Below the pieces are notes generated by a model. The model was given only the letters and a program-made list of their open reading frames with translations. It had not been told where the DNA came from and searched no databases. A DNA stretch of 23,590 bases from a virus, in IMG/VR virus record IMGVR_UViG_3300031898_000273, positions 1 through 23,590 of that record. The stretch is one strand, 5' to 3'. The position numbers were made by a program, and so were the translations under genes. Of the stretch, positions 2,197 through 15,777 are shown in pieces; the first letter of the stretch is position 1, and each line of letters begins with the position of its first letter.

Positions 2197-2462
2197 GTTT
2201 TAGGCTTTCGGGCGATATAAAGGATAAAGAGCTTTTCAAAAACATCATCGAGGTTGGCGTAAAAAACGGCGGCAGACTGTTCTATCGAGAAGACGCTAAC
2301 GGAAACATCGTTGAACTGGTTTATTTCAGCGGGGCGAAAAGGGTTAGCTACATAGGCGAAATAGACCAGCAGTTTGCAGGCATAGTCCGAGCTGAAGGAG
2401 CCAGGGTTAAACTCCTCATTTTCAACGAAAGTGAAGGCATTCTGAAAATCAGTCAGGAATAG
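2193..2462 (+). CDS. Hypothetical protein, 89 aa
   Basis: The ATG at 2193 overlaps the upstream stop (ATGA) and is preferred over an ATG nine bases earlier. The product has a lysine/acid-rich N-terminal helix (DIKDKELFKNIIEVGVKNGG) followed by alternating strands (LFYRE, IVELVYFSG, VSYIGEI, VKLLIF), suggesting a small beta-sheet fold. No family is recognised. It is translationally coupled within the operon; function unknown. Confidence 0.6.
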   Translation: MSFRLSGDIKDKELFKNIIEVGVKNGGRLFYREDANGNIVELVYFSGAKRVSYIGEIDQQFAGIVRAEGARVKLLIFNESEGILKISQE

Positions 2463-2465
2463 CCT

Positions 2466-2834
2466 TTGCGTTTAAAGGCGGTTGTGAGATTTTTGCGAAA
2501 AAACCAAATCTTTCATACGGGAGAAGCTAAAGTAGACCGCACCTTCAACAGCGACCAAGGGCAAGGCAAGTTTCAAGGCTTCCCAAAACAGTCAGTTGAA
2601 GCCTTATACAGAAAAGAAGACCCATGCGACGGAGAGGTCGCGGCGTGCATTTTCGAAGTTAGCACTGACGACCATTTCTTTCCAGACCGAAGATGGCTGA
2701 TATGGTTTCCAAAAGGACACGAGCTGAAGGCAATCTCGGAATCCATAGCAAAAACGGATGAAACAACCGAAGACATGCTTAAACGAGGATGGAAAGGACA
2801 CCCGATTTCGAAACTGCATAACCTGATTGGATAA
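2466..2834 (+). CDS. Hypothetical protein, 122 aa
   Basis: The gene starts with TTG three bases after the previous stop and overlaps the next frame by eight bases. The N-terminus is basic. The middle contains an aromatic-rich stretch (HFFPDRRWLIWFPKG) and the C-terminal third is helical. No family is recognised. The tight spacing supports a real gene; the TTG start is the only reasonable one because there is no upstream ATG in frame. Confidence 0.55.
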   Translation: MRLKAVVRFLRKNQIFHTGEAKVDRTFNSDQGQGKFQGFPKQSVEALYRKEDPCDGEVAACIFEVSTDDHFFPDRRWLIWFPKGHELKAISESIAKTDETTEDMLKRGWKGHPISKLHNLIG

Positions 2835-3198
2835 ACCCAGCTTGGAGTGGATGAGACAAATGGTAAGTAAGGCGTTTAAGAACTGCGTTGAACTTGTCGA
2901 GGAAATCCTCAGAGAAGGCTACCGACTGCAGATTCCCTCTACCCATGTTGAGAAACTTATTAAGGTTCACGTTGGAGCTGACAAGCGAACAATCCAGAAG
3001 TACATGAAGATGCTGACAGAAGACCTGGGATTTCTTGAAACTACAGCAAAGAATCCCTTAGGAATCTACATTTACAGAATAGACATCGCAACAATCGAAC
3101 AGTATCTCAGTGAACACATGAAAGAGAAGCTCAGACAACTGACGCTCTTTGACTTACGCTTGAGACAGGAAGAGGAGGTGAAAGCAGAAAACACTTAG
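2827..3198 (+). CDS. Winged-helix-like DNA-binding protein
   Basis: The segment from about residue 40 to 85 reads as a winged helix: helix (THVEKLIKVH), turn, recognition helix (DKRTIQKYMKMLTEDL), then a wing-like hairpin with NPLGIYIYRID. A charged C-terminal tail follows (LRLRQEEEVKAE). Such proteins act as transcription factors in archaeal viruses. The start is uncertain: TTG at 2827 overlaps the upstream gene, while ATG at 2851 and ATG at 2860 lie behind GGAG at 2844-2847. It is the last gene of the 1096-3198 operon, and its stop codon directly abuts the structured non-coding element. Confidence 0.65.
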   Translation: MDKPSLEWMRQMVSKAFKNCVELVEEILREGYRLQIPSTHVEKLIKVHVGADKRTIQKYMKMLTEDLGFLETTAKNPLGIYIYRIDIATIEQYLSEHMKEKLRQLTLFDLRLRQEEEVKAENT

Positions 3199-3372
3199 TG
3201 TGTGCGCGTGCAGAGAGATCAAACAGAGACTAATGAGACTCAAGAAGAGACGATGAATAACAGAGCGATTAGATAGCGGAGAGGCTATTATTCATCTTGA
3301 AAGAAGAAGCATGATTCTTAAAGAAACAGAGAGACTGTTAGAAGCGCGGAACATGCACACACACGCACACAC
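3198..3372 (+). ncRNA. Candidate structured RNA closed by a long-range GC-rich stem
   Basis: The ends of this non-coding stretch pair with each other: GTGTGTGCG (3198-3206) is the exact complement of CGCACACAC (3364-3372), and GTGCA (3208-3212) of TGCAC (3354-3358). Inside, GATGAATAA (3252-3260) pairs perfectly with TTATTCATC (3288-3296), enclosing TAGC/GCTA (3274-3277 with 3284-3287) and a GGAGAG loop. AACAG/CTGTT (3325-3329 with 3335-3339) forms another hairpin. The interior is strikingly purine-rich. The strand is assumed to follow the flanking genes. It could be a stable RNA, an untranslated leader of the gene at 3429, or a terminator; part of the right arm is a simple CA repeat, which weakens the case. 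Confidence 0.4.
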
Positions 3373-3428
3373 ACAAAAACCTTAACATATCTGCAAAACA
3401 AAAAATACAGACTACGGGTGAAGGAGAA

Positions 3429-4394
3429 ATGAGTGAACGTCTGCCAGAAGTTAAGTTTCACAGCTATACTGTCCTCGATGGATCAGAACAAGTTCTGGTC
3501 CAGAAAGTAGGAGACGGATCGATAATAAAGAGATTTGACAAGACGCCGATTCCCCAGAAACTGACAGACGTTGTATGTCCACATTTTCTGGAACTTAAAT
3601 GGGCTTACGGTTGTCCTTATGATTGTGCATGGTGCTTTCTTAAGGGAACACTAAGGCTTCTCAGTACAAGGACAAAGCCTATCGTCAAAGACTACTGTAA
3701 AATCCAGAAGCATTTGGAAAGTTTCTTCGAGAATGACGGACACTCAAGGGAGCTACTAAACACTGGAGAGCTGGCTGATTCTCTAATGACTGAAAGCACC
3801 AATAAACCATTTTCAAGATTCATCATACCCCTTTTTGAAGAACAAGAGCAACACAAAGTCCTATTCTTGACCAAATCAACCATCATAAAAAACCTTCTCG
3901 CAATGAAAAACCACAATCAAGTCATAGTTAGTTTTAGCCTAAATGCGCCATCCGTCGCAAGAAAATGGGAGAGAGCACCTTCTGTCGAAAAAAGACTGGA
4001 AGCTACAAAACTCTTGAGCGAAGCAGGCTACGAAACACGCATCCGTATTGATCCAATAGTTCCCGTTGAAAATTGGCAAAAACAATACCTAAGTATCATA
4101 GACTCGATATTCAGCACACTTGTTCCAGAAAGAATCACTCTGGGCTCTTTAAGAGGCCTTCAAAGCACCATCAATAATGCAAGAGATAAATCATGGACTA
4201 TGTTTATGACAGAAACTTCAAACTGGGGAAAGAAGATTGCTTTCAAGACCCGATTCTTAATCTACGAAACCATCTTGGAATATCTAAGATTCAAGTATAA
4301 CTACTCACGAGTTGCTCTTTGCAAAGAAACGATTGAAATGTGGACCAAACTTGGTTTGGACTACAAGAGTATTCAATGTAATTGTCTGCCTTAG
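3429..4394 (+). CDS. Three-Cys-motif radical-SAM-like protein (spore photolyase-like), paralog 1
   Basis: The 321-residue product carries a CxxxCxxC cluster motif, GCPYDCAWC, with C62, C66 and C69, the arrangement that binds the [4Fe-4S] cluster of radical SAM enzymes. The downstream blocks NTGELADSL, VSFSLNAPSVARKWE and ETRIRIDPIVP match the spore photolyase-like (COG1533-type) barrel. The family cleaves S-adenosylmethionine to make a radical; the substrate here is unknown. Further cysteines C50, C298, C317 and C319 are shared with the paralog at 4478. An AAGGAG ribosome-binding site precedes the ATG, and a TATA-like TTAACATAT lies about 45 bases upstream. Families of this type are encoded beside TcmP proteins, and one lies at 5585-6700. 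Base composition is more AT-rich than the virion genes, consistent with cargo. Confidence 0.85.
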   Translation: MSERLPEVKFHSYTVLDGSEQVLVQKVGDGSIIKRFDKTPIPQKLTDVVCPHFLELKWAYGCPYDCAWCFLKGTLRLLSTRTKPIVKDYCKIQKHLESFFENDGHSRELLNTGELADSLMTESTNKPFSRFIIPLFEEQEQHKVLFLTKSTIIKNLLAMKNHNQVIVSFSLNAPSVARKWERAPSVEKRLEATKLLSEAGYETRIRIDPIVPVENWQKQYLSIIDSIFSTLVPERITLGSLRGLQSTINNARDKSWTMFMTETSNWGKKIAFKTRFLIYETILEYLRFKYNYSRVALCKETIEMWTKLGLDYKSIQCNCLP

Positions 4395-4444
4395 TTGTTG
4401 CTATAGACAAAATCTCGAAATTCATTATCCCGATCAGTAAAATG

Positions 4445-4454
4445 TTAATTTATG
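4445..4454 (+). promoter_or_regulatory. TATA-like box for the second three-Cys gene
   Basis: TTAATTTATG is centred about 29 bases before the ATG at 4478. That spacing fits an archaeal TATA box driving a leaderless transcript, and there is no ribosome-binding site at a usable distance. The gene therefore probably has its own promoter rather than depending on readthrough from 3429. Confidence 0.4.
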
Positions 4455-4477
4455 TCACATAATATCTTACGTAGGAA

Positions 4478-5563
4478 ATGGATTCAGATATGAGTGCCGA
4501 GGACAAGAAAAAACATAGAGAAGCAGCATTAAAGGCATGGCGAACAATCAAGCGCCAGAAGAGAGAGAAAGCCACAAAAGACATGCAGAAGTTAACGGAG
4601 TTCATAAAGCCAGAAGCTATGCAAAAAATAAAACACCCCGAGATAAGCGAGTCTTATGAACTGATAGAGCCTGCGTGGAATGGAAACCGCATTGTTGTGC
4701 CTTTTCACAAAACTCCTGAAAGCATAGCATGCGGAATGTTTTGGGAATTAAGATGGGCCTATGGTTGCCCACTGGACTGCAGTTATTGCTATCTACGAGG
4801 AACCACTCGCGGCAAAATGCGACCTCAATACGTAAGGATTGACCATGTCCTGGAAGCCTTAGACGAGGCCTTCATCAAAATCCGATCACCATCAATTTTC
4901 AACGCAGGTGAGCTGTCGGACGCTCTCATGAACCCCCAAATGATGGCTCAAATAGTTGAAAGATTTGAGCAACAGAGCAAGCATAAGATCTATCTTCTGA
5001 CAAAGTTTGGAGCGAGAAATGTACAGTTTCTGTTAGACCAGCCAAGAAAGCAGGTGATATGCGGTTGGAGCATTAACGCTCCTGCAGTCGCCAAGCTTTG
5101 GGAGAAAGCGTCTCCTCCTCCGGAGAAAAGAATTGAGGCTGCCCGAGAGGTTAGCATCGCTGGATATGACACAAGGATACGAATAGACCCTATTTTTCCA
5201 ATACCTGACTGGCAGCTGCACTATGGTGAATTGGTTGATCAAGTACTGGCCAACCTCAATCCTAACCGAATTATTCTTGGCACGCCAAGAGGGCTCTGGA
5301 AAACAATAAAGTATGCGAAAGAGGCATGCACAGATATGTCGTGGACACGTTTTTTCAAAGAGGACACTGGTTGGGGCAAAAAGCTGTCTTTTGAGCAAAG
5401 GAAAGAGACATACGAGTTCTTCTACAAGAAACTGGATTCAGCAAACTTTCCTATGTCTCGAGTATCGATATGCAAAGAAACTGTGGAAATGTGGGATGCT
5501 TTAAGATTGCGTTACACGCCTGGAGTCTGTAGCTGTTATGGTAAGAGTGCCTTACAGATTTGA
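4478..5563 (+). CDS. Three-Cys-motif radical-SAM-like protein (spore photolyase-like), paralog 2
   Basis: The 361-residue paralog of the preceding gene has GCPLDCSYC (C97, C101, C104), NAGELSDALM, WSINAPAVAKLWE and DTRIRIDPIFP in the same order and spacing. It adds a lysine/arginine-rich N-terminal helix of about 45 residues (including HREAALKAWRTIKRQKRE), which is likely a nucleic-acid contact. C85 lies 12 residues before the first cluster cysteine, as in paralog 1. The C-terminal ICKETVEMW (C332) and VCSCY (C351, C353) also keep the paralog's spacing. Two diverged copies side by side suggest a heterodimer or two substrates. The gene converges on the TcmP-like gene with 21 bases between stops. 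Radical chemistry is inferred from the motif; the substrate is unknown. Confidence 0.85.
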   Translation: MDSDMSAEDKKKHREAALKAWRTIKRQKREKATKDMQKLTEFIKPEAMQKIKHPEISESYELIEPAWNGNRIVVPFHKTPESIACGMFWELRWAYGCPLDCSYCYLRGTTRGKMRPQYVRIDHVLEALDEAFIKIRSPSIFNAGELSDALMNPQMMAQIVERFEQQSKHKIYLLTKFGARNVQFLLDQPRKQVICGWSINAPAVAKLWEKASPPPEKRIEAAREVSIAGYDTRIRIDPIFPIPDWQLHYGELVDQVLANLNPNRIILGTPRGLWKTIKYAKEACTDMSWTRFFKEDTGWGKKLSFEQRKETYEFFYKKLDSANFPMSRVSICKETVEMWDALRLRYTPGVCSCYGKSALQI

Positions 5564-5584
5564 TGCCCTTCTTCTTCTAAAAAG

Positions 5585-6700
5585 CTATCTGCGAAATGTT
5601 ATGACGCATCCTTTAGGATAACTGAATCTCTTTTTCCTCTCAGTCACTTTGATTATCTTTGGTGGGCTATCTTTTTCTAAATACTCTAAAATAGACTTGC
5701 GATAAATGAATGGAGTGCTTGCAATCACGAACTGATGGACTGCATCTTCCGAAACCGATTTTCCTTTAAACTCATTATAGACCATCTCCGCTGCCTTAGG
5801 AATCCAATGAGGCTCTTCGGTGTAGTCTATCATGTACGTCTGATCAATATCCGTAAAATCGGAAAATGTGTAGGTTCCTCTCCTGTCCACTTTACACATT
5901 GCTTCTTTCATGACTTCAAGCCCTCTCAAATGCTTAGTTCCATAAACCAGATAATAGATAAGCTGATTTTGAGGCCCAATCATCCCGAAGCTTCTGACAT
6001 GCTTGGCCCCTCCAACATTCCTCAGTTGCCTTTCATACAAATCTAAAAGAAATCTTAGGCGCTTATCTGGATCACCGATATTACAAGCTTGCTTCCATTC
6101 TTCGGATGCAAACAATTCATTCAAAACAGGTGCACGTAACTCATCTAAGAAGCGTTTTACGAATCCTGCCATAAACGTGATCAGCACCTCACAACTGTCA
6201 TAGCTCATCATTCGTCCAATTAATTTCATAGGAAAACCTGAAAAACCAAATGGGTCCAGGAAAGCAAATGTTGGAGCAAGTTTCGCCTCTCGGTTTTCAA
6301 GTTCGTCTAACACCTGTTCAAGGGTTGGGGCAAATTCCGCGCCTTGGACTCGGTATATCATATTTTTCGGAAGGCGTGGAAAACGTTTCTTAAGAACCTC
6401 AGTGAGCATCTTGGCGCGATTAGGGTCTTTCTCGATAAAATAGAACACTATTTCCTTGAAGTGCATACGCAACGTATGCTCAACAGCCGTCTGTAATGCT
6501 ATAGCCGGAGATCCGTCTTCACCACCAGAGTAGATACCAGGTCCAGCGAAACCGTCCAAATAGATTATTCTGCCTGCCCAACTTGACAGAATCGGGAACC
6601 ACGCTTTTAGGTAGTTTCCTAATATCTCGTGCTTGGCTTGAGTATGAGCTTCGATGGTCCAAACGGTGGAGGATTCATTTGACAGACGGTTAACCTCCAA
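5585..6700 (-). CDS. tcmP: Three-Cys-motif partner protein (TcmP-like)
   Basis: The 371-residue product matches the TcmP family, named for being encoded next to three-Cys-motif radical-SAM-like proteins, as here. Visible motifs are WTIEAHTQAKHEILGNYL near the N-terminus, the glycine-rich loop DGFAGPG (49-55) like motif I of SAM-dependent methyltransferases, FIEKDPNRAKML (about 89-100) at the motif II position, and AFLDPFGFSG (147-156) at the catalytic DPPF/NPPY-like position. This suggests a Rossmann nucleotide- or SAM-binding core, though activity has not been shown for the copy here. The C-terminal part looks helical with a basic end. The start TTG lies in TTTTGGAGG and is uncertain. The gene is convergent with the three-Cys pair and has its own promoter region upstream of 6700. 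Confidence 0.8.
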   Translation of the reverse strand: MEVNRLSNESSTVWTIEAHTQAKHEILGNYLKAWFPILSSWAGRIIYLDGFAGPGIYSGGEDGSPAIALQTAVEHTLRMHFKEIVFYFIEKDPNRAKMLTEVLKKRFPRLPKNMIYRVQGAEFAPTLEQVLDELENREAKLAPTFAFLDPFGFSGFPMKLIGRMMSYDSCEVLITFMAGFVKRFLDELRAPVLNELFASEEWKQACNIGDPDKRLRFLLDLYERQLRNVGGAKHVRSFGMIGPQNQLIYYLVYGTKHLRGLEVMKEAMCKVDRRGTYTFSDFTDIDQTYMIDYTEEPHWIPKAAEMVYNEFKGKSVSEDAVHQFVIASTPFIYRKSILEYLEKDSPPKIIKVTERKKRFSYPKGCVITFRR

Positions 6701-6845
6701 AATACTGTCATAGTTAGTGGCTATTATTCTTACTGATTTTCATTCGTTCCTATATTCAGAAAGTCATTGTTTTAGTATGCCGTTGATTCATTTGGGTTGA
6801 CTTTATCTATGATGTCGCAGGTTGTATCTTTCAGGTAAGTAGATT

Positions 6846-7055
6846 ATGAGAAGGGTTCTGAGAATGCGTTGTCAAGGTTGTGGTCATTGGAACCGAGTTC
6901 CAGTAAACAAGATCATTGTTGAGCAAGACTCTCCTGAACCCAAGGTTAAGGTTTTCATTCCCATGTATGAACCGCTACAAATTTCTAAATGTGAGAAATG
7001 TGGCAGAATAATTGCTGAACCAAAAGAGCTTATCAGAATTATGAAGAAATCATAG
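6846..7055 (+). CDS. Small zinc-ribbon protein, 69 aa
   Basis: Two CxxC knuckles, MRCQGCGHWNRVP and KCEKCGRII, separated by about 36 residues, form a classical four-cysteine zinc ribbon. The linker is a beta-rich stretch with PEPKVKVFIP. The N- and C-termini are basic. The start may be ATG at 6846 or the ATG six codons later; no good ribosome-binding site is seen for either. Zinc ribbons of this size act as transcription or nucleic-acid adaptors in archaea, but the partner is unknown. It sits between the TcmP gene and the head genes and abuts the convergent RHH gene at 7058. Confidence 0.7.
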   Translation: MRRVLRMRCQGCGHWNRVPVNKIIVEQDSPEPKVKVFIPMYEPLQISKCEKCGRIIAEPKELIRIMKKS

Positions 7056-7057
7056 CG

Positions 7058-7222
7058 TTAGCTGTGAACCTTCTGCGTTACCAAACTCAGCTTCTCAGCA
7101 TATTGCAAAAACGCCATACGTAGGGTTTCGCTTTCGCTCTGCCCCAGCTTCTCACATATATGATCTAACAACTCCTTATGCTGTCGACTCAAAACAACCC
7201 TTACGATGTGTTTTCTTGCCAC
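7058..7222 (-). CDS. Ribbon-helix-helix protein, 54 aa
   Basis: Reading the minus strand from GTG at 7222 gives a 54-residue product: strand HIVRVVLSRQHKELLDHI, turn, then helix ESETLRMAFLQYAEKL. This is the RHH (CopG-like) layout with the usual glycine/serine turn (KLGQSESE). Ribosome-binding is weak, and TTATATCA near 7264-7271 (minus orientation) is a candidate TATA box. The gene diverges from the prohead protease, so it is a candidate repressor of the late head operon. Confidence 0.6.
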   Translation of the reverse strand: MARKHIVRVVLSRQHKELLDHICEKLGQSESETLRMAFLQYAEKLSLVTQKVHS

Positions 7223-7276
7223 TCTTTGACCAGCCTATTGTACAATTCAACTTATGTTTTGAATGATATAATCTTA

Positions 7277-8564
7277 ATGGGCAGAGTGCGTTAAAGGTTG
7301 GTACAAGCCTCTGCCATGGGAAGAAACTGATCAGTACATTCGTTCTGGGCATCGTAACTCCGAAGATTTTGAATCAGACAGCCTTCGCACTATCACGCTT
7401 TCTGAAGAGGAAGGAATCAAAGCCATAATCGGCAAGCCCAAGGGCAAGGACACAACCGAAGTTCAAAGTTACTTGTTTGACCGTTCTAAAACGTGGAATT
7501 TGGAGAAGGCCAAGGAATGGTTTGAGAAGCATCGTGAAGGCTTAAAACCCGTTAGAGAGCACGTTCAGGCTATTTTGCCTTTCAAGGTTTTAGAGAAGAT
7601 TGTCGACAAGCCTCTACGCATCAAAGGCATAGCCATAACCGCTGGCATGAGCAGAAACTTCAATCTCTATACGCCAGAAGAGCTACAGAGCTTCGCCAAC
7701 AAACTTGTTTCTGCACCCATCTACGTCGAGCATATTGCCGTCCCTAACGCCGTCGGAAAAGTCGTCAAAACCGAATGGGATGGACAAAACCTCTGGTATG
7801 AAGCAGAAGTCTACGACGACGAAGTTGCAGAAAAAATCCGTAAAGGCTTAATCCAGCATGTCAGTGTTGGAGCCGACTACGAAACCATAGACGTTCTGGA
7901 CGGTAAGGTTCCGCATGGACTGCACAACGCCGAGTTAAGCCTCGTGGCTGTGCCAGGCATACCTGAGACGAACATTAAGGTTTTGGAAAAGCTGATCCCT
8001 CCGAATGAAGAAGAATTGAAAAAGCTTGTTGAAACGCAGGTTAAGGCAATCCTTGAAGCCGAGCAAAGAAAACTGAAAGAAGCAGAATGGGATACAGCAT
8101 ACATAAACGACTTACCTGACTCCGCTTTCGCCGTGATCTCAAAAGGCGGAACAAAAGACGACCAAAACAAAACCGAGCCCAGAACACTTCGCCATCTCCC
8201 ACACCACAAAACTGATAGTTCACTTGATATTCCGCACTTGAGAAACGCTTTGGCAAGACTCTCACAAACTGATCTATCACCTGAGGAGCATACTGAAGCC
8301 AAACGCCACCTATGCGCCCACGCCAAAGAATCAAACATTGAAAGCGAGTTCTGCAAAGAAACGGAATCATGCTCAATTGCTGAAACTCTCATCAAGAAAC
8401 CAACCGAACCCATGATACCCGTAAGGCTTGTTGTTGAGAAGCTTGATTCTGTTATTCCGCCACCTCAAGTTGTCTTCAGCCATGGACAAACAAGCGGTTT
8501 CAAACGGCTTGTGGACAACATTCTGCGAATCAAAAGAGAACTCGAAACAGAGGCTAAATTATGA
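7277..8564 (+). CDS. Prohead maturation protease (HK97/U35-like) with C-terminal accessory domain; 5' end contains a frame break
   Basis: The protease core shows the family pattern: IYVEHIAVPNAVGKV with the catalytic-type His (codon at 7731), then LIQHVSVGADY with the Ser, then LSLVAVPGIPETNI. It cleaves scaffold and capsid proteins inside the prohead. A C-terminal module, RHLPHH and LRNALARLSQTDLSPEEH, is commonly fused to such proteases. The first canonical start in the long frame is TTG at 7473, but coding clearly extends upstream (WYKPLPWEETDQYIRSGH from 7299) to a stop at 7275-7277 with no ATG, GTG or TTG. An ATG at 7277 in another frame reads five codons to a TAA at 7292-7294. Skipping one T there gives MGRVRKGWYKPLPW. 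A programmed +1 shift, an indel or a non-standard start are all possible. Confidence 0.8.
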
Positions 8565-8776: not shown

Positions 8777-9241
8777 ATGGCGGATTTGTTCCCCGCCTTA
8801 GCACTCGGGGACGCCTTAGACGAAACCCAAGCACTAATCATCGACTTCAAAGCTCAAAACGCCATCACAAAAGGCCAAGCTGTCAAAATGAGCACGCACA
8901 CTTCTGGAGAGCTTGGCAGCGTTGACATTGCAGGCGCAGGAGACAAAGCAATCGGCGTCGCCTTAAAAACCGTCGTTGCTGGAGACCCAGTTCCAGTTCT
9001 TGTCAAAGGCGTTGGCAAAGTAACAGCCAGCGGCGCAATAACCATCGGCTCAGCCGTCAAAGCTGGAGCAAGCGGAGTCGTAGTCGCAGCAGTCAACACC
9101 GTAACTATACCCTCAGGCGCTACAACAGTAACCAGCACCTCAGCCAACCCAAGCATGACCGTCGAAGCAGGCATAGCCTTCGGCATTGCCCTTCAAACAT
9201 TCGCCAACGGCGACACAGGCTTGATTCTCGTCACGAATTAG
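8777..9241 (+). CDS. Capsid decoration-like protein (DUF2190-type beta barrel)
   Basis: The 154-residue product is rich in Ala, Gly, Val and Thr with repeated short strands. It contains the pattern AITKGQAVKMS followed by GAGDKAIGVALKT and VPVLVKGVGKVTASGAI, characteristic of small phage decoration proteins of the DUF2190 type. A second half with NTVTIPSGATTVTSTS ends in ALQTFANGDTGLILVT. Such proteins bind the outside of the expanded capsid. The gene lies immediately before the major capsid gene, the usual place. GGAG lies ten bases before the ATG. Confidence 0.75.
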   Translation: MADLFPALALGDALDETQALIIDFKAQNAITKGQAVKMSTHTSGELGSVDIAGAGDKAIGVALKTVVAGDPVPVLVKGVGKVTASGAITIGSAVKAGASGVVVAAVNTVTIPSGATTVTSTSANPSMTVEAGIAFGIALQTFANGDTGLILVTN

Positions 9242-9253
9242 GAGCAGCTAAAC

Positions 9254-10162
9254 ATGACTAACCACTTGCAGGAATCAATCCTAAAAGACCCAGAACTGGG
9301 ACAACGCCACTGGGACGAGTTAATTGCCAAAGCTCAACGCAACCCGTTCTTCGCCAAAGCCATAAAAGAAGGACTCTACAGCGACGTAGCCGGAGCCTTG
9401 GGCGCCGTTCAAGACACTGTTTGGGCAGCTGCACGCGCTGCAACCATAGGCAGAGAACTTTTGAAAGTCTTAGCAACCAAGAATGCGTTGGAACGCTTTC
9501 CATGCGAAGTCATCGCCTACGCTTTCGACGGAGAAGGCCCACCGAAAAAGACAGCTGCAAGGGCTTCAATGACAGACATTAAAGCAAACGTGGAGTTCAG
9601 CAGCGGCAAGGAATGGACTGAAAGCTTTTTGGAAGACGCAAGCTGGAACGTGCTGGAATGGCAGACTGAAGCCATCGGCTACGCTTTGGCAAAGAGAGAA
9701 ACAGAAAAGGTCGTAGCCTTATACAACGCCATTGCAGCCGCAGATTTGGCTAACGGTTCAGAATCAACCATTGCTTCGCCGATCACATGGGCAAACATCA
9801 CGGACAACCTTGGTTACGTTGAAGGTCAGGATTTCCATCCGAACGTTGTGGCTGTAAGCCCCACGGTTTACAGCGAACTGCTTCGATTAGACCAGTTCAT
9901 TCACGGCTTATACTTGGACCCCAGAAACATCAAGAAAGGCGTAATCCAGCACACCACCTTAGACGTCACATTCATCCGTAGTAGCCTCGTGACAAAGACA
10001 TTGTTCATTGACACAAACGCCGTTGGAGTTCTGCTGATACGCAGAGATTCAACCATAAAACCCTACGAAGACCCAGCCAGAAACGTGTACGGCGTAGTAG
10101 GCAGCCAACGCATCGGCTTAGGCATTCTCCGGTCTAAAGCGGTTCAAAGAGGCTCAAGGTAA
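9254..10162 (+). CDS. Major capsid protein, HK97 fold
   Basis: At 302 residues the protein has the size and layout of a compact HK97-fold major capsid protein. It has a helical N-terminal arm (1-60), an E-loop-like region with the polar FSSGKEWTESFLEDASWNV, a spine helix (EWQTEAIGYALAKRETEKVV), and the P/A-domain signature FHPNVVAVSPTVYSELLRLD. The C-terminus has strands VGVLLIRRDSTIKPYEDP. It is the building block of the icosahedral shell, processed or assembled with the upstream protease. Ribosome-binding site GGAG is 11 bases before the ATG. The family is clear from context and motif; exact cleavage sites are not visible. Confidence 0.85.
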   Translation: MTNHLQESILKDPELGQRHWDELIAKAQRNPFFAKAIKEGLYSDVAGALGAVQDTVWAAARAATIGRELLKVLATKNALERFPCEVIAYAFDGEGPPKKTAARASMTDIKANVEFSSGKEWTESFLEDASWNVLEWQTEAIGYALAKRETEKVVALYNAIAAADLANGSESTIASPITWANITDNLGYVEGQDFHPNVVAVSPTVYSELLRLDQFIHGLYLDPRNIKKGVIQHTTLDVTFIRSSLVTKTLFIDTNAVGVLLIRRDSTIKPYEDPARNVYGVVGSQRIGLGILRSKAVQRGSR

Positions 10163-10164
10163 AA

Positions 10165-10428
10165 TTGCTCAAACGAGGCTACGCTGTGGGCAAGTGCCCT
10201 CGATGTGGCAAAGTCTACAAGCGACCATTTCCACAGGATTCAGTTGTCTGCGACTGCTGGCGCTTCTGCCCAATATGCGGAGCCACAATGCAACCCTACA
10301 CGCCCGACCTAACGCCTGAAACTTACGGCAAAGACGGAAAACGCGACCTACAGATTCTAATGGTCTGCAACAACCATTCTCCGCCTTTCTATAGCACACA
10401 AGAACCCATGGAAGTTTCTTTATCATGA
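10165..10428 (+). CDS. Zinc-binding small protein, 87 aa
   Basis: Starts with TTG three bases after the capsid gene stop. The N-terminal half has GKCPRCGKVYKRP, then VVCDCWRFCPICG: two CxxC knuckles plus an extra CxC, giving a possible zinc ribbon. The C-terminal half contains LQILMVCNNHSPP and may form strands. No family is recognised. An ATGA overlap joins it to the next gene. Its location inside the head operon makes a structural or late-regulation role possible. Confidence 0.65.
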   Translation: MLKRGYAVGKCPRCGKVYKRPFPQDSVVCDCWRFCPICGATMQPYTPDLTPETYGKDGKRDLQILMVCNNHSPPFYSTQEPMEVSLS

Positions 10429-10673
10429 GAAGACTGTCCGAAAGATTGCAACTTGCGAGAATCGTTCTAACAGAGCTTAGGAGACAGCCTCTATGCCGAA
10501 CTGAGCTTGAGAAAAGAACCGTTAAGCGATGTGGCACCCACGGGACTTTTGAGAGCATATTCGATTTCCTCATCCAAAACGGCTACATAAGGAAAAGTGG
10601 AAAGGAACACCGCGCTCCTTACGAGATCACCGAGGAAGGCATCAAGTTTCTTGGCGGTTTGAAAAGTGAGTAA
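10425..10673 (+). CDS. Winged-helix-like regulator, 82 aa
   Basis: Starts with the ATG overlapping the previous stop. The product has a helix (LQLARIVLTELRRQP), a helix-turn-helix (CRTELEKRTVKRC and TFESIFDFLIQNGYIRK), and a wing-like end with YEITEEGIKFLGGL, the pattern of archaeal winged-helix regulators with the typical 'ITEEG' ending. It probably binds DNA and may control late genes. Its stop overlaps the portal start by eight bases. Confidence 0.7.
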   Translation: MRRLSERLQLARIVLTELRRQPLCRTELEKRTVKRCGTHGTFESIFDFLIQNGYIRKSGKEHRAPYEITEEGIKFLGGLKSE

Positions 10674-11877
10674 CATCGTCAAGAAGCTTATCGAGGCTTT
10701 CACCCGCCCAACACGATCTGGCACTGCTTACCCATCCACTCAAACGGTTACTGAAACTTCACCAGACATACCGCTTGCAGACATCATGAAGCTCTATGAA
10801 AGAGATCCAACTTGCAAAGCGTCAGTCGACCTACTTGCCTCTGCCACCGTTGGCATGGGCTTCTATACAACAGCAAACGAAAAATACCCTCAAATGGAGA
10901 AAGCCAAACAAGCAGTTGACGAGTTCAATGAAGAAACAAACCTTGACGCCTTGCTTAATGATATGGCACGGGTTCTCATCGCTTGTGGAAACGACTTTTG
11001 GCTTAGAATCACGCCTGAAAAACTTGCCAGCTTGCACAGACTTCCAATCGACGCCATTGAGAAGGTTAAGCAAGCCTACATAGGGGAAGGCTTGAAAATA
11101 CCATACAAGACCGAAGGATACAAGTTACGACACAACTACGCCGAAGCTGACAAGGAACTTGTCCCTGAAGCTATTATTCATTGGAGAATAAACAACACTG
11201 GCAATTCAGGCTTCGGAATAGGCATTCTACAAGTATTACTCCATACGCTCATTTTCAACTCAAACAGGAGACCCAGCTACGCTTGGATGAAAGCCAAAAT
11301 AGAGCGCATAATGCCAAGCATCTTCGAAAAATATGCAGGACCAGACGTTCTGGCACTGTTGGAAAACGCAAAGGACGAAGACATCAAAAAGTTTGAATCA
11401 GCCATAAGAAACCGTCCAGAAGAAGGAGCGTGGCTCTTCTACAGAGGCAAAGGCGACATAAAACCAGTAATGCTCGACCCAAGAGCCCGCTTCGAATACT
11501 ACATAGACCACATCATCAACCAATTTTACCTTGGCTGCGAAACACCTCTACCTCGTTTGTTTAGCACGCCTGGATTTACAGAAGCCTCAGCAAACGCAGC
11601 CTTAGACCTTCAAAACCTACTCATAAACCCAATACAACGCTACATCAAGAGACAAGTCGAAAGAGACATCTTCGATGCAGTTTTGACTCAATCAGGCTTC
11701 AGTCCAGCAGAAGCTAAGGTTCGCCTCAACTGGGGCAGCCCCGAAACTCCGGAGGTTGTTATGGCTGACCTCATAAAGGCTGCAGAGTTGGGTCTCATAC
11801 GCTCAGAAGAGTTCCGCAAGAACGCCACAAAATTCGGCTGGGAACTATGGCAAGAAACTGGAAAGGAGGTGAAATAG
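10666..11877 (+). CDS. Portal protein
   Basis: The 403-residue product matches a phage portal of the HK97 type. The N-terminal segment DIMKLYERDPTCKASVDLLA is typical. A core with LIACGNDFWLRITPEKLASL and the domain of PEAIIHWRINN and FGIGILQVLLHTL follows, then a long helical end with TEASANAALDLQNLLINPIQRYI. It forms the dodecameric ring through which DNA is packaged by terminase and to which the neck docks. The start GTG lies inside the end of the upstream gene. Unusually, the portal follows the major capsid gene rather than preceding the protease. Confidence 0.85.
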   Translation: MSNIVKKLIEAFTRPTRSGTAYPSTQTVTETSPDIPLADIMKLYERDPTCKASVDLLASATVGMGFYTTANEKYPQMEKAKQAVDEFNEETNLDALLNDMARVLIACGNDFWLRITPEKLASLHRLPIDAIEKVKQAYIGEGLKIPYKTEGYKLRHNYAEADKELVPEAIIHWRINNTGNSGFGIGILQVLLHTLIFNSNRRPSYAWMKAKIERIMPSIFEKYAGPDVLALLENAKDEDIKKFESAIRNRPEEGAWLFYRGKGDIKPVMLDPRARFEYYIDHIINQFYLGCETPLPRLFSTPGFTEASANAALDLQNLLINPIQRYIKRQVERDIFDAVLTQSGFSPAEAKVRLNWGSPETPEVVMADLIKAAELGLIRSEEFRKNATKFGWELWQETGKEVK

Positions 11878-12050
11878 TGGGATTCCAATTCAAGCCAAAG
11901 CTGGCTGCGGTTCTGGCTGTGCTCAACGGCGCTTCAGTGGGTTTAGCCTACATAGTCAGCCAAGGCGACATAACAGTAACCATCGTGTGGTTCGCAATTA
12001 CGACAGGCGTAACAGCAGGACTAAGCTACTACAAAGAACAGCAACAATAA
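11877..12050 (+). CDS. Small two-helix membrane protein (holin-like), 57 aa
   Basis: A full Shine-Dalgarno AAAGGAGGTGA four bases before GTG at 11877 makes this the start; an in-frame ATG 30 bases upstream lies inside the portal gene and lacks such a signal. The GTG overlaps the portal stop (TAGTG). The 57-residue product has two probable membrane segments, about 9-28 (LAAVLAVLNGASVGLAYIV) and 34-50 (ITVTIVWFAITTGVTAG), then a polar tail. The size and layout resemble holins, but a head-associated membrane protein is also possible. Confidence 0.65.
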   Translation: MGFQFKPKLAAVLAVLNGASVGLAYIVSQGDITVTIVWFAITTGVTAGLSYYKEQQQ

Positions 12051-12147
12051 AGCCGGCTTCAAATGCTGGGGACCTTTTGATTTCACTCAAGCGTTAGACC
12101 CTCACCCAGAAATCTTAAAGAGCAATGAGCAACTAAGTCTATTAATT

Positions 12148-13050
12148 ATGCAAGATGAAACTCCAAAAGAACAATGGAAGAAAGTTGTACATGATGAATT
12201 TCCTCATTTCAAAGAAATCTACAGTTCAGAAGATGAAATGTTAAGTTATGGTTTAAAATTCCAACACATATACGAAAAATATCAGAAAGCATTTGTGGAG
12301 TTTTTCAGCATTTCCGAGTTTTTCCGTGCAATACAATTTTTGACAAAGAATAAAAGTGAAGGTAAAAAGGATTCCTCGGCTTATCAATATGAAAAACGCG
12401 AAGATGTGCTCAGCCTCATCATGGTAATATCCTTAATTGAGAAACTATGTTCTAAGGAGGATTTTGTCCCTTTTCCTAAATGGACTAAGGAAAGAGGTTT
12501 GAATTGCGGAAATGTGAGAAAGATATACAATGAATACAACGAAAATTTCGGGTGCAGCCACAAATTTAGGAATTTCTTTGCAAGTCAGGAATATTTGGAG
12601 ATAGAAGAACAATTAAATCTCTTAAGGTCTGTTTGCTATTTTGTCAAAGATAAGGATAACAAAATTTCATCTGTGCCTATGTTCTGTTATGATGAAGCAA
12701 GATGTGGCAAAAGGGAACATTGCTGTACATTTGATAATGAAAATTGTCCTGCATTCTCAAATGAAAAGGTACGTAAGGATGGGTTAAAAGAATTTGCAAA
12801 TTTCTTATACGAGTTACGAAATAGGTTTGTTCATAGCGCTCATATGTTTAGGCTGTCAGAAGAATCTGCTCGACTGGGAAAATCATACGTAGGCGATTAT
12901 TTTTCTTATGAGTTTCATTACATTAAGAAGCCACTTTATGAGGGTGGAGCGATGCTAAACTTGAGTCCTCTTGACCTTAAGAGAATTCTTGACAAGAATT
13001 TCAAAAAATTGCTGGACAACTATATCGCAGCAAGAACAAAAACCTCATAA
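12148..13050 (+). CDS. Accessory protein with HEPN-type RxxxxH motif and Cys cluster
   Basis: The 300-residue product is mostly helical. Near the C-terminus LYELRNRFVHSAHM contains R224-x4-H229, the RNase-type motif of HEPN domains, set in a long helix as expected. A cysteine cluster (C180, C186, C192, C193, C200) may bind zinc. HEPN proteins often act in antiviral abortive responses, cutting RNA. The gene is much more AT-rich than the flanking virion genes, and the next gene is on the opposite strand. This marks an insertion between portal and connector genes, a moron-like site. TCTTAAAG about 31 bases before the ATG could be a TATA box for a leaderless transcript. Function is inferred from one motif only. 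Confidence 0.55.
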   Translation: MQDETPKEQWKKVVHDEFPHFKEIYSSEDEMLSYGLKFQHIYEKYQKAFVEFFSISEFFRAIQFLTKNKSEGKKDSSAYQYEKREDVLSLIMVISLIEKLCSKEDFVPFPKWTKERGLNCGNVRKIYNEYNENFGCSHKFRNFFASQEYLEIEEQLNLLRSVCYFVKDKDNKISSVPMFCYDEARCGKREHCCTFDNENCPAFSNEKVRKDGLKEFANFLYELRNRFVHSAHMFRLSEESARLGKSYVGDYFSYEFHYIKKPLYEGGAMLNLSPLDLKRILDKNFKKLLDNYIAARTKTS

Positions 13051-13124
13051 TGTTTTTTGCATCTTTCTGATAAACTCTTGAGATTCTTCTCTCTTTGTCT
13101 TTTATAAAACCCGTGTTTCTCAGT

Positions 13125-13748
13125 CTAAAGGGAAGAAATCAATGCCCAACCAATAAACACTAAGACAAATGACCAAATTATGCCAAAAACAAGCAAGCCA
13201 AACGCCATATCTTCATCTCTGTCTTTTGTTCCAACGTAGCCAATTATTCCTCCAATTAATCCAAAAAGAAACGGAACCAAATACCATGCTCCTGACGGTT
13301 TTCCAACTAAATCATCTTCATCATCATTAAGTCGAGAAGGGCGTTGCTGTGAGTCAAACGCTTCTGGGTTTTTCTTGAGTTCTTTTAAGTCGTTTATCTT
13401 GCTTTCAAGACTCCTTACGGACCGTAGATAAGACTCCTCGCTAATTTTACCTTCAGCGAAAAAAACGGACAATTTTTCAATGCTTTTCTTGTACTTGGTT
13501 ATTTCATGGTTGATTCTTGTTATCTGACTTATTTTTCTCGGCTCTTGCTTGTTTTCAGAGCTAAGATAATTACAACTGATTTCGCATATTTCTTGATTGG
13601 GGCACGTATAGCAACAAGAATTCCACATTTCGTTTACACAAGATTCATCTCTTAATGCTCTGCCCTCTGGATTCTTCATTATCGCTTTGCATGAACCGTC
13701 GTCAGAGAAATATTCACATTTTATTCGTACAATATCATCTTCTTCCAT
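13125..13748 (-). CDS. Membrane protein with Cys-rich N-terminus, coiled coil and two C-terminal membrane helices
   Basis: Starting from ATG at 13748 (a TTG three codons upstream is the alternative), the 207-residue product has eight cysteines in its first 60 residues (11, 20, 37, 45, 46, 49, 55, 59), likely zinc-binding. A coiled coil follows from about 70-130, including FFAEGKISEESYLRSVRSLE, like SHOCT-type oligomerisation segments. Two membrane helices lie at about 155-173 and 181-204. It is convergent with the HEPN-motif gene and AT-rich like it, so the two probably came in together. A membrane sensor or superinfection-exclusion role is possible but unproven. Confidence 0.65.
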   Translation of the reverse strand: MEEDDIVRIKCEYFSDDGSCKAIMKNPEGRALRDESCVNEMWNSCCYTCPNQEICEISCNYLSSENKQEPRKISQITRINHEITKYKKSIEKLSVFFAEGKISEESYLRSVRSLESKINDLKELKKNPEAFDSQQRPSRLNDDEDDLVGKPSGAWYLVPFLFGLIGGIIGYVGTKDRDEDMAFGLLVFGIIWSFVLVFIGWALISSL

Positions 13749-14013
13749 TTCTGGCAATTTTAATCACTGTCTGTGTATGTTCCCCCGATATTTGTTCAAA
13801 TCTAATAGAGCATGCTCTTCAAAATTACCTTTGTGAATTCAAAATACAGAATACCCCTCTCGGATTTTTTCGTTTTGTTTTCAGCATACGCTTCGTTTTT
13901 TCCTTTTTAAATATTATACGTGAGTCCACCTATTCCAGAAATTAGATTTGAAATCTGTTTTTTCTTCGTGGAAATTGCTTAATTTTTGCTTCTTTCTTGA
14001 TTTATAGGCAGAA
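13749..14013. promoter_or_regulatory. AT-rich divergent intergenic region with two palindromes
   Basis: This gap lies between the minus-strand membrane-protein gene and the plus-strand connector gene. It has runs of T, a TATA-like stretch around TTTTTAAATATTATACG (about 13902-13918), and two perfect inverted repeats: AGAGCATGCTCT at 13807-13818 and AGATTT-g-AAATCT at 13944-13956. ACAAATATCG in minus orientation (about 13783-13792) could be the TATA box for the minus-strand gene. The palindromes are candidate operators, one nearer each start. Confidence 0.4.
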
Positions 14014-14385: not shown

Positions 14386-15777
14386 TTGGGAACAGTACCA
14401 GACGCCTACTACCAATTCGTCATGGACTATGCACCATACGTTTATGTCATTCCTGGTTCTGGTCCTGATTTGACTTGGGGCAGAGCTGCTTTTGCAGCGG
14501 CTTTCGCCACAGACTTCCTTCATGAAGCCTATCACGATTCACAGTTTGCCAGCAAGCAAACAGACATTTACAACAAGATTGTCTCTCTTGCAGACTGGAT
14601 TCTGACGCAACAGTGCACAGACCCAGCAAAGAAGGCTTATGGCGGATTCAAAAGCAACGAAACAAGCACGTACTATTACAGCGTCGACGCATGCCGAGTC
14701 ATTCCATCCCTCTTGAGGGCCTACGACTTAACAGGCACAGTGGGATACCTCAATGCTGCCAAGCTCGCCGGAGCCACGTTCCTAAAAACCATGCAGGATA
14801 AGCAAACCTACGGCGGTTTTGCCCGAGCAGTCACCATAGCAGATGCTTGGCTTCTCCAAATGGATATAGAATGCTTCTACGGACTCGTTGGCTTGAAAAT
14901 GCTTGCAGAAAAATTCGACACCGCCAACGCCAACACATACCAAGACATAATGTCAAAGGCTCTCGGTTTCCTTCGAGAAGGCTTTGAAAATCTCTGGCTC
15001 TACTACGACCCTGCCGATTCAAATTGGCATAGAGTCGGCGCAAATGAAAACGAGATTTACGATGACCCGTTCGCCTACGCTCTTCTTGGAGTGTATGATT
15101 ACGAAGGCTGGAGCATAACCGCCCAAAAGGTTTACAACATCATCAACACAATCAGAGCCAGCCCGCAGTATCCCGCGTATAACCCCGCTATCTGTTGGGC
15201 AGGCTACATAGACATTGTCAGCCGTTTCCCAGCATGCGACTATTACGATGTAGTCACAAGCGGAATCCTGCGGAAAATCCGCAAAAACCACGACAAACCA
15301 AGCTTCCAATTCAGCATGAAAATCATCGACAAACATCAAAGCGCGTTCATGTTCTGGGGCGCAAAACACACCGACTACAGCTACGAGGAAAACAAACAAG
15401 CAATGGCAACAGTCGCTTGGCTGTCACTACTCTACCTAAACTACGAGGACCCACTAACCCGATTCACACAGATTCTCAAGTCGAAAGGCGAAAACGTAAC
15501 CCTATGCCCGATACGAGAAGCATCTGAAACAGTTTCATACGGCGAAGGCATCGACATCAAAGCCATCGTCAGCCCAGCAAGGATTGAAGAAGTCTTAATC
15601 GAACCTGGCTACATAATCAACGATTACCTCACCATTCATGTTTTTGCTCCCTTAAGACAGCATGACAAAATCCGCAGAAAAGGCGTCGACTACGAGGTTT
15701 TCGACATCCAAGAATTCGACTTTCAAGGCGAAACGGTCCACCGCAAGGCAGTTTGCAGGAGGCTTCTCGGACAGTGA
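14386..15777 (+). CDS. Head-closure (stopper) protein fused to an alpha/alpha-toroid glycosidase-like domain
   Basis: The product of 463 residues has two parts. Residues 1 to about 352 alternate long helices with YGGF-type loops (AYGGFKSNETS, TYGGFARAVTIAD, DDPFAYALLGVYDYEG), the pattern of (alpha/alpha)6 toroids such as six-hairpin glycosidases and lyases. Residues about 355-463 look like a gp16/gpFII-type head-closure protein: FTQILKSKGENVTL, then IDIKAIVSPARIEEVLIEPG, DYLTIHVFAPLRQHDKI and VDYEVFDIQEFDF. Stoppers are normally about 100 residues, so the enzyme-like domain is an extra N-terminal module. The start is TTG, three bases after the connector stop. The stop overlaps the next start (GTGA). 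Catalytic residues cannot be identified with confidence. Confidence 0.7.
   Translation: MGTVPDAYYQFVMDYAPYVYVIPGSGPDLTWGRAAFAAAFATDFLHEAYHDSQFASKQTDIYNKIVSLADWILTQQCTDPAKKAYGGFKSNETSTYYYSVDACRVIPSLLRAYDLTGTVGYLNAAKLAGATFLKTMQDKQTYGGFARAVTIADAWLLQMDIECFYGLVGLKMLAEKFDTANANTYQDIMSKALGFLREGFENLWLYYDPADSNWHRVGANENEIYDDPFAYALLGVYDYEGWSITAQKVYNIINTIRASPQYPAYNPAICWAGYIDIVSRFPACDYYDVVTSGILRKIRKNHDKPSFQFSMKIIDKHQSAFMFWGAKHTDYSYEENKQAMATVAWLSLLYLNYEDPLTRFTQILKSKGENVTLCPIREASETVSYGEGIDIKAIVSPARIEEVLIEPGYIINDYLTIHVFAPLRQHDKIRRKGVDYEVFDIQEFDFQGETVHRKAVCRRLLGQ

Follow-up and report, generated by a model that had tools for sequence, protein, structure and literature searches.

A viral three-gene module joining a TcmP methyltransferase-like protein to two radical-SAM paralogues: a recurrent combination with interchangeable partners

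The virus record IMGVR_UViG_3300031898_000273 encodes two related radical S-adenosylmethionine (SAM) proteins, here called A and B, and a TcmP protein whose gene converges on them, the stop codons of B and TcmP lying 21 bp apart. The stretch analysed, referred to below as the window, is the whole record of 23,590 bases and is possibly only a fragment of the viral genome. The current work shows that TcmP retains a three-Cys radical-SAM partner while the lineage of that partner is exchanged; the module consists of ordinary parts in an unusual, recurrent combination. We propose, at a probability of about one half, that A, B and TcmP together make up one multi-subunit nucleic-acid-modifying enzyme used in virus-host conflict.

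A preliminary description of this DNA had recognised two proteins resembling spore photoproduct lyase (SPL) in tandem, converging on a TcmP with the motifs DGFAGPG and DPFG, and a basic N-terminal extension on one of the two copies. The open reading frames (ORFs) and family matches bear this out. A and B are 41% identical, both contain CxxxCxxC, and both match PF20903 (SPL/Radical_SAM; E 9e-15 for A, 3e-18 for B) and TIGR04070 (E 3e-20 and 1.5e-21; 72.3 and 76.7 bits, which do not reach the cut-off of 400 bits). TcmP scores 195.6 bits against TIGR04474 (curated cut-off 53) and matches the PADLOC model PDC-M30A at E 1.1e-60; both motifs are present, and the basic extension belongs to B.

The pairing of TcmP with radical-SAM proteins was surveyed from both sides. 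Of 72 genome contigs collected from the radical-SAM side, 44 had TcmP next to the radical-SAM gene and 8 had the two fused. The genes of adjacent pairs (46 in all) lay a median of 6 bp apart, in tandem in 35 cases, convergently in 11 and divergently in none. A second survey was queried with the TcmP family alone, in order to avoid the bias of the first. In the samples searched, TcmP-positive genomes amounted to 23 of 398 in Thermoproteota, 26 of 227 in Asgard archaea, 57 of 251 in Chloroflexota and 28 of 294 in the phylum of Methanoperedens, which we take to be Halobacteriota. A radical-SAM gene, recognised by any of three profiles, lay within about 1.5 kb of TcmP or was fused to it in 100 of the 114 loci fetched from these four phyla, a set in which a few genes are counted twice and in which the 14 misses are enriched in weak or truncated matches. 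In IMG/VR, radical-SAM genes neighboured TcmP in 12 of 14 further viral loci (11 DUF5131 and one SPL-like). The recurrence of the pair, already suggested by the preliminary description, is thereby confirmed, and the pairing is close to obligate. One locus on a Rhodococcus plasmid (L007, positions 2406-5808) contains two different TcmP genes with one DUF5131 gene.

The partners belong to three lineages, SPL-like, DUF5131 and PA0069-like. Mapped on the TcmP tree, partner lineages have been exchanged no fewer than 15 times, and fused forms have originated no fewer than 4 times. Fusions were found with SPL-like proteins (seven, complete or nearly so), with DUF5131 (L104) and with PA0069-like proteins (L137, L171). 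The constancy of the partner and the swapping of its lineage therefore follow from the survey, the tree and the fusions in several lineages, and the fusions support a physical association of the partners. DUF5131/Gp37-Gp68, which corresponds to PDC-M30B, stands beside TcmP on Rhodococcus, Mycolicibacterium, Streptomyces, Micromonospora and Hymenobacter plasmids, and unannotated in two Gordonia phages. The layout in the Gordonia phage and Rhodococcus plasmid loci is convergent, as in the window. The viral TcmP is a clear member of the pair listed as the PADLOC candidate PDC-M30/M41 and likewise has three-Cys radical-SAM partners; in the window, however, these are SPL-like rather than DUF5131, and two in number.

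The preliminary description had placed A and B among the three-Cys radical-SAM proteins. This stands as far as the cysteine motif is concerned, but they are not the usual DUF5131 partner: neither matches PDC-M30B at E 0.1, whereas true partners score about 350-410 bits. The DUF5131 and PA0069-like partners match the radical SAM mobile pair models (TIGR04470/TIGR04471, cut-offs 410/355 bits), in which two radical-SAM proteins are likewise encoded together on mobile DNA; A and B, at 28.2 and 16.2 bits, fall far below these cut-offs. SPL is the best match in both sequence and fold, the fold having been tested on a homologous natural TcmP-radical-SAM fusion (L026), and A and B have the radical-SAM core in common with SplB. 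In SPL a fourth Cys (C141 in the Bacillus subtilis enzyme, C140 in that of Geobacillus thermodenitrificans) is catalytic and essential (PMC3742179). Among 82 A/B-type proteins, the radical-SAM Cys residues, N142-x-G-E145, D148 and K176 are invariant or missing only through gaps, and the same is true of C85, C332-K-E, C351 and C353. Because E145, invariant in 82 of 82, stands where SPL has its essential Cys140, A and B are not SPL, and by sequence they form a separate SPL-like family, distinct from the DUF5131 partner. The additional Cys85, Cys332, Cys351 and Cys353, which SplB lacks, suggest a putative second metal site. A role in DNA repair, with A and B as photoproduct-lyase-like enzymes and TcmP as a lesion-binding partner, would agree with the closeness to SPL; it is nevertheless improbable, for the catalytic Cys is replaced, four further Cys are invariant, and a methylase partner and operons with restriction-modification genes (see below) are unsuited to repair.

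The AlphaFold model of TcmP (predicted local distance difference test score 88.5) is closest to RlmJ (Z 16.8), the RlmJ homologue LPL1258 (16.2) and Trm1 (14.6), with Trm5a also among the closest folds; ordinary methylases reach Z 12.9-14.3, so that RlmJ is ahead by about 2. A search of BFVD returned generic methylases only. RlmJ is also the best sequence match in the PDB (E 0.0075), and hhalign (E 1.8e-6) aligned motif I, the GSP(L)IA segment, an acidic residue and motif IV of the two proteins, with D149 of TcmP against D164 of RlmJ. Catalysis by RlmJ requires K18 and D164 (PMC3814359). The nearly invariant K23-H24 of TcmP resembles K18-H19 of RlmJ, and the profile alignment begins downstream of it. 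Residues 296-371 of the model look like a winged helix in their secondary-structure topology. TcmP is thus modelled as an RlmJ/Trm1-type nucleic-acid methyltransferase, sharing the fold, motif I and the motif IV Asp with RlmJ (23S rRNA m6A2030) and Trm1 (tRNA m2,2G26) and differing from them in the added C-terminal winged helix and in sequence, with an identity of 16%. The L026 fusion is modelled, with confidence, as a TcmP domain and a radical-SAM domain, and its radical-SAM half matches SPL.

The preliminary description had read the two radical-SAM copies as a sign of a heteromeric complex, and the two-copy form does recur, with a dedicated clade for B. On the radical-SAM tree, A lies inside the main single-copy clade, and B groups apart in an archaeal clade (support 99) whose members come from Bathyarchaeota, Asgard and Thermoproteota genomes. 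All nine B-clade proteins carry a (K/R)-rich N-terminus with the pattern AA.KAW.TI(R/K). The strict B clade occurs only in modules with two radical-SAM proteins, the other being A-type (in the viruses and L019-L023) or PA0069-like (L115). TcmP with two PA0069-like proteins was found on haloarchaeal plasmids and in one further genome. The modules on Halopiger, Haloarcula and Natribaculum plasmids follow the same plan as that of the window, two related radical-SAM paralogues with TcmP; their paralogues, however, are PA0069-like, and the long copy has a Cys-rich N-terminus instead of the KAW motif. The three-protein plan has therefore arisen with different radical-SAM combinations. One locus (L102) had been regarded as having a single radical-SAM gene, and this was rejected when a longer stretch showed an adjoining PA0069-like gene. 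A purely archaeal distribution of two-radical-SAM modules is likewise not safe, as a locus of Phycisphaerae (L081) combines a TcmP-radical-SAM fusion, frameshifted in this assembly, with a DUF5131 gene.

It may be asked whether A and B are simply redundant copies, each pairing separately with TcmP and forming no heteromer. Most modules have a single radical-SAM protein, and in one Bathyarchaeota locus (L023, positions 4006-8046) the order radical-SAM-TcmP-radical-SAM-TcmP is seen in one run, directly downstream of a ParB-like gene. We regard redundancy as rather unlikely, since the B proteins are a clade of their own, marked by an N-terminal motif private to them, and strict members of that clade were found only in company with a second radical-SAM protein, even one of another lineage. 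ParB-like genes are also located upstream of the module in L024 and L025. A PA0069-like protein 3.7 kb from a TcmP (L116, positions 9966-10985) shares the N-terminal motif AA.KAW.TIR with the viral B. The longer of the two haloarchaeal radical-SAM proteins (L011, positions 1353-2699) is extended at its N-terminus by a Cys-rich segment resembling a zinc ribbon, which may be a counterpart of the extension of B.

The module of the window is intact and maintained. A, B and TcmP are all present in two further viral contigs at 93-95% protein identity, and between the window and its relatives the ratio of nonsynonymous to synonymous substitution (dN/dS) is 0.07-0.10 for the three genes, similar to the 0.05-0.06 of the portal gene in the same comparison. 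All three are under purifying selection; the three-gene arrangement is therefore not due to chance. Genes for an HK97-type head, portal and terminase are encoded in the window. In a scan of genome contigs with B, a 93% identical match was found on a contig of Bathyarchaeota archaeon A05DMB-2 (L018). Because this contig keeps the neighbouring genes of the window in the same order, the host is very likely a bathyarchaeote.

Among the genes around the module, the commonest unrelated neighbour was a Type IIG or related N6-methylase restriction-modification (RM) gene, present in 10 of the 72 loci as a raw count and lying within 100 bp of TcmP or the radical-SAM gene in 6 of these 10. In about eight loci the module shares an operon with RM genes of Type IIG, I or III. 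Similar settings are seen in loci without TcmP, where the radical-SAM gene directly follows Type I hsdM-hsdS (L027) or Type III mod-res (L030), or has a GmrSD gene on one side and a YhcG nuclease gene on the other (L031). The B-type module of L115 adjoins GmrSD, with an N4/N6 methylase nearby, and DUF1156/Hma genes occur near some TcmP or radical-SAM loci. In temperate phages, repressor genes lie on one side of the pair and integrase or recombinase genes on the other. The Sinorhizobium meliloti TcmP gene SMa2243 and the phage-defence gene hna are among co-regulated, up-regulated putative operons (PMC12445080). In L036 (positions 5655-8459), a radical-SAM gene is flanked on one side by a duplicated 5' fragment of mnmE/trmE and on the other by the complete gene, which suggests that a mobile element was inserted at mnmE.

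From these observations we infer that the three proteins form a complex in this virus and that its substrate is nucleic acid; the order of reactions and the role are likewise inferences. A, B and TcmP would form one heteromeric enzyme. TcmP would bind nucleic acid, probably DNA, by means of the methylase domain together with the winged helix, and would act on a base at its exocyclic amine or present it there. A, as the canonical partner, and B, as the specialised paralogue, would use the [4Fe-4S] cluster and SAM to carry out radical chemistry, its target being that base or the methyl group installed by TcmP. A sequential scheme of this kind has an analogue in TYW1, which acts on the 1-methylguanosine made by Trm5. 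For the virus, the module would then be an instrument of conflict, protecting the viral genome from host restriction by a mark or acting on competing or host nucleic acid; the sequence does not decide between self-marking and weapon, that is, between anti-defence and defence. The preliminary description had spoken of a complex for nucleic-acid modification or repair: modification agrees with the fold, the winged helix and the RM neighbours, and association with the fusions, while SPL-type repair is made less likely by the invariant Glu.

Several points weigh against this enzyme. Motif IV of TcmP is DPFG and not the DPPY of N6-methyladenine (m6A) enzymes such as RlmJ. The model of the L026 fusion has a predicted template modelling score of 0.56 and does not fix the domain arrangement or the interface. 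The RM association concerns a minority of loci, and the module of this virus adjoins structural genes rather than a lysogeny module. RNA is also a live alternative to DNA because RlmJ and Trm1 act on RNA: the target may be tRNA or rRNA, modified by TcmP and its partners in order, for instance, to shield or to poison translation in the infected cell. The closest folds of TcmP are rRNA and tRNA methylases, and RlmJ did not act on its site when this was offered as single-stranded DNA (PMC3814359). DNA is nonetheless favoured by the RM operons in which cellular copies are often found; winged helices are more often DNA-binding, and the active site of RlmJ has been described as nearer to those of DNA m6A enzymes (PMC3814359). 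An RNA-modifying module is thus considered a doubtful though serious alternative.

Another explanation, somewhat unlikely in our estimate, is a stand-alone antiviral effector of the PDC-M30 type, by which superinfection by competing viruses would be excluded and modification would be attack rather than self-marking. The PDC-M30A match of TcmP and the prophage copies in repressor-integrase modules point in this direction. Of 100 Pseudomonas aeruginosa strains, 32 were predicted to carry PDC-M30, and 68.8% of these 32 were resistant, a correlation only (PMC10855318); PDC systems are mostly unvalidated (PMC12988326). The module is without a nuclease or toxin; moreover, such an effector is compatible with the proposed enzyme, direction being the sole difference. 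Many pairs of radical-SAM protein and methylase act on peptides, and a modification resembling that of ribosomally synthesised and post-translationally modified peptides might be imagined here. It is very improbable: no conserved small ORF was seen adjoining the pairs, and TcmP resembles nucleic-acid methylases. The features on which the proposed multi-subunit modifying enzyme is based are listed in Table 1.

Table 1. Coordinates of the module and its motifs in the window.
Feature	Position	Strand	Details
Radical-SAM protein A, SPL-like, canonical TcmP-associated lineage	3429..4394	+	321 aa; main single-copy clade of radical-SAM tree
CxxxCxxC radical-SAM motif of A (CPYDCAWC)	3612..3635	+	Alignment
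Radical-SAM protein B, second SPL-like paralogue, archaeal B clade	4478..5563	+	361 aa; clade support 99
Basic N-terminal motif of B, KKKHREAALKAWRTIK	4505..4552	+	Pattern AA.KAW.TIR/K in 9/9 B-clade proteins
CxxxCxxC radical-SAM motif of B (CPLDCSYC)	4766..4789	+	Alignment
NAGELSD motif of B, Glu145 at position of SPL catalytic Cys140/141	4901..4921	+	SPL alignment; invariant 82/82
C-terminal CKE...CxC of B (Cys332, 351, 353)	5471..5536	+	Each Cys in 81/81 ungapped of 82 radical-SAM proteins
TcmP, class I SAM methyltransferase-like, convergent with B	5585..6700	-	371 aa; TIGR04474 E 1.4e-57
TcmP motif I (DGFAGPG)	6536..6556	-	Aligns with RlmJ motif I
TcmP motif IV (DPFG), Asp149 corresponding to RlmJ Asp164	6245..6256	-	Asp149 invariant in TcmP alignment; compare RlmJ IDPPY
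Winged-helix-like C-terminal domain of TcmP, residues 296-371	5588..5815	-	Model secondary structure H-E-H-H-E-E

A structured RNA and a zinc ribbon had also been described as flanking the module, and neither could be upheld as part of it. The Rfam search at gathering thresholds gave no match, the intergenic folds were no better than shuffled sequences (z -1.4 to +1.2), and no terminator-like site was found. The zinc ribbon (6846-7055) is a small ORF with CxxC pairs between TcmP and the gene at 7473-8564; it is present in this virus only among the set, and nothing homologous occupies the corresponding position in L002, L003, L018 or L019. The gene at 7473-8564 occupies the probable position of a prohead protease and has no family match. 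Downstream, the cement protein and the major capsid protein (8777-10162) are 44% and 35% identical to those of the relatives, compared with mostly 87-96% for the flanking genes; this is a head-module swap. The A+T-rich region 12000-14000 (GC 0.36, against 0.41-0.51 elsewhere) contains two unmatched ORFs (12148-13050 and 13125-13757) that are not found in related contigs, and is a probable recent insert. In the structural gene region, 14386-15777 has a weak match to the D-glucuronyl C5-epimerase C-terminus (E 0.003, below cut-off), and a carbohydrate-acting virion protein is possible.

The TcmP-radical-SAM pair itself is already recognised by database curators, and no work on the function of TcmP or of DUF5131 pairs was found in the open literature, most subscription journals and preprints being outside this scope. 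The partner switching, the multi-lineage fusions, the non-SPL radical-SAM family and the dedicated B clade are, as far as found, undescribed. TcmP, an annotated but unstudied family, thus gains a modelled fold identity, an RlmJ-type methylase with a winged helix; a rule, the near-constant and swappable three-Cys radical-SAM partner, with repeated fusions; and a setting in RM operons, prophage lysogeny modules and an archaeal virus. Tentatively, and at odds well short of even, the family may represent a new class of hypermodification enzymes, in which a methyltransferase with interchangeable radical-SAM proteins would make a radical-derived base mark of self or non-self, and in which archaeal viruses would use two radical-SAM chains with a division of labour. 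The fused forms make the module directly testable as a single protein. If a radical-derived base modification is indeed made, virus-host conflict would involve a chemistry new to it, and the spread of the family over bacteria, archaea and their viruses would be accounted for.

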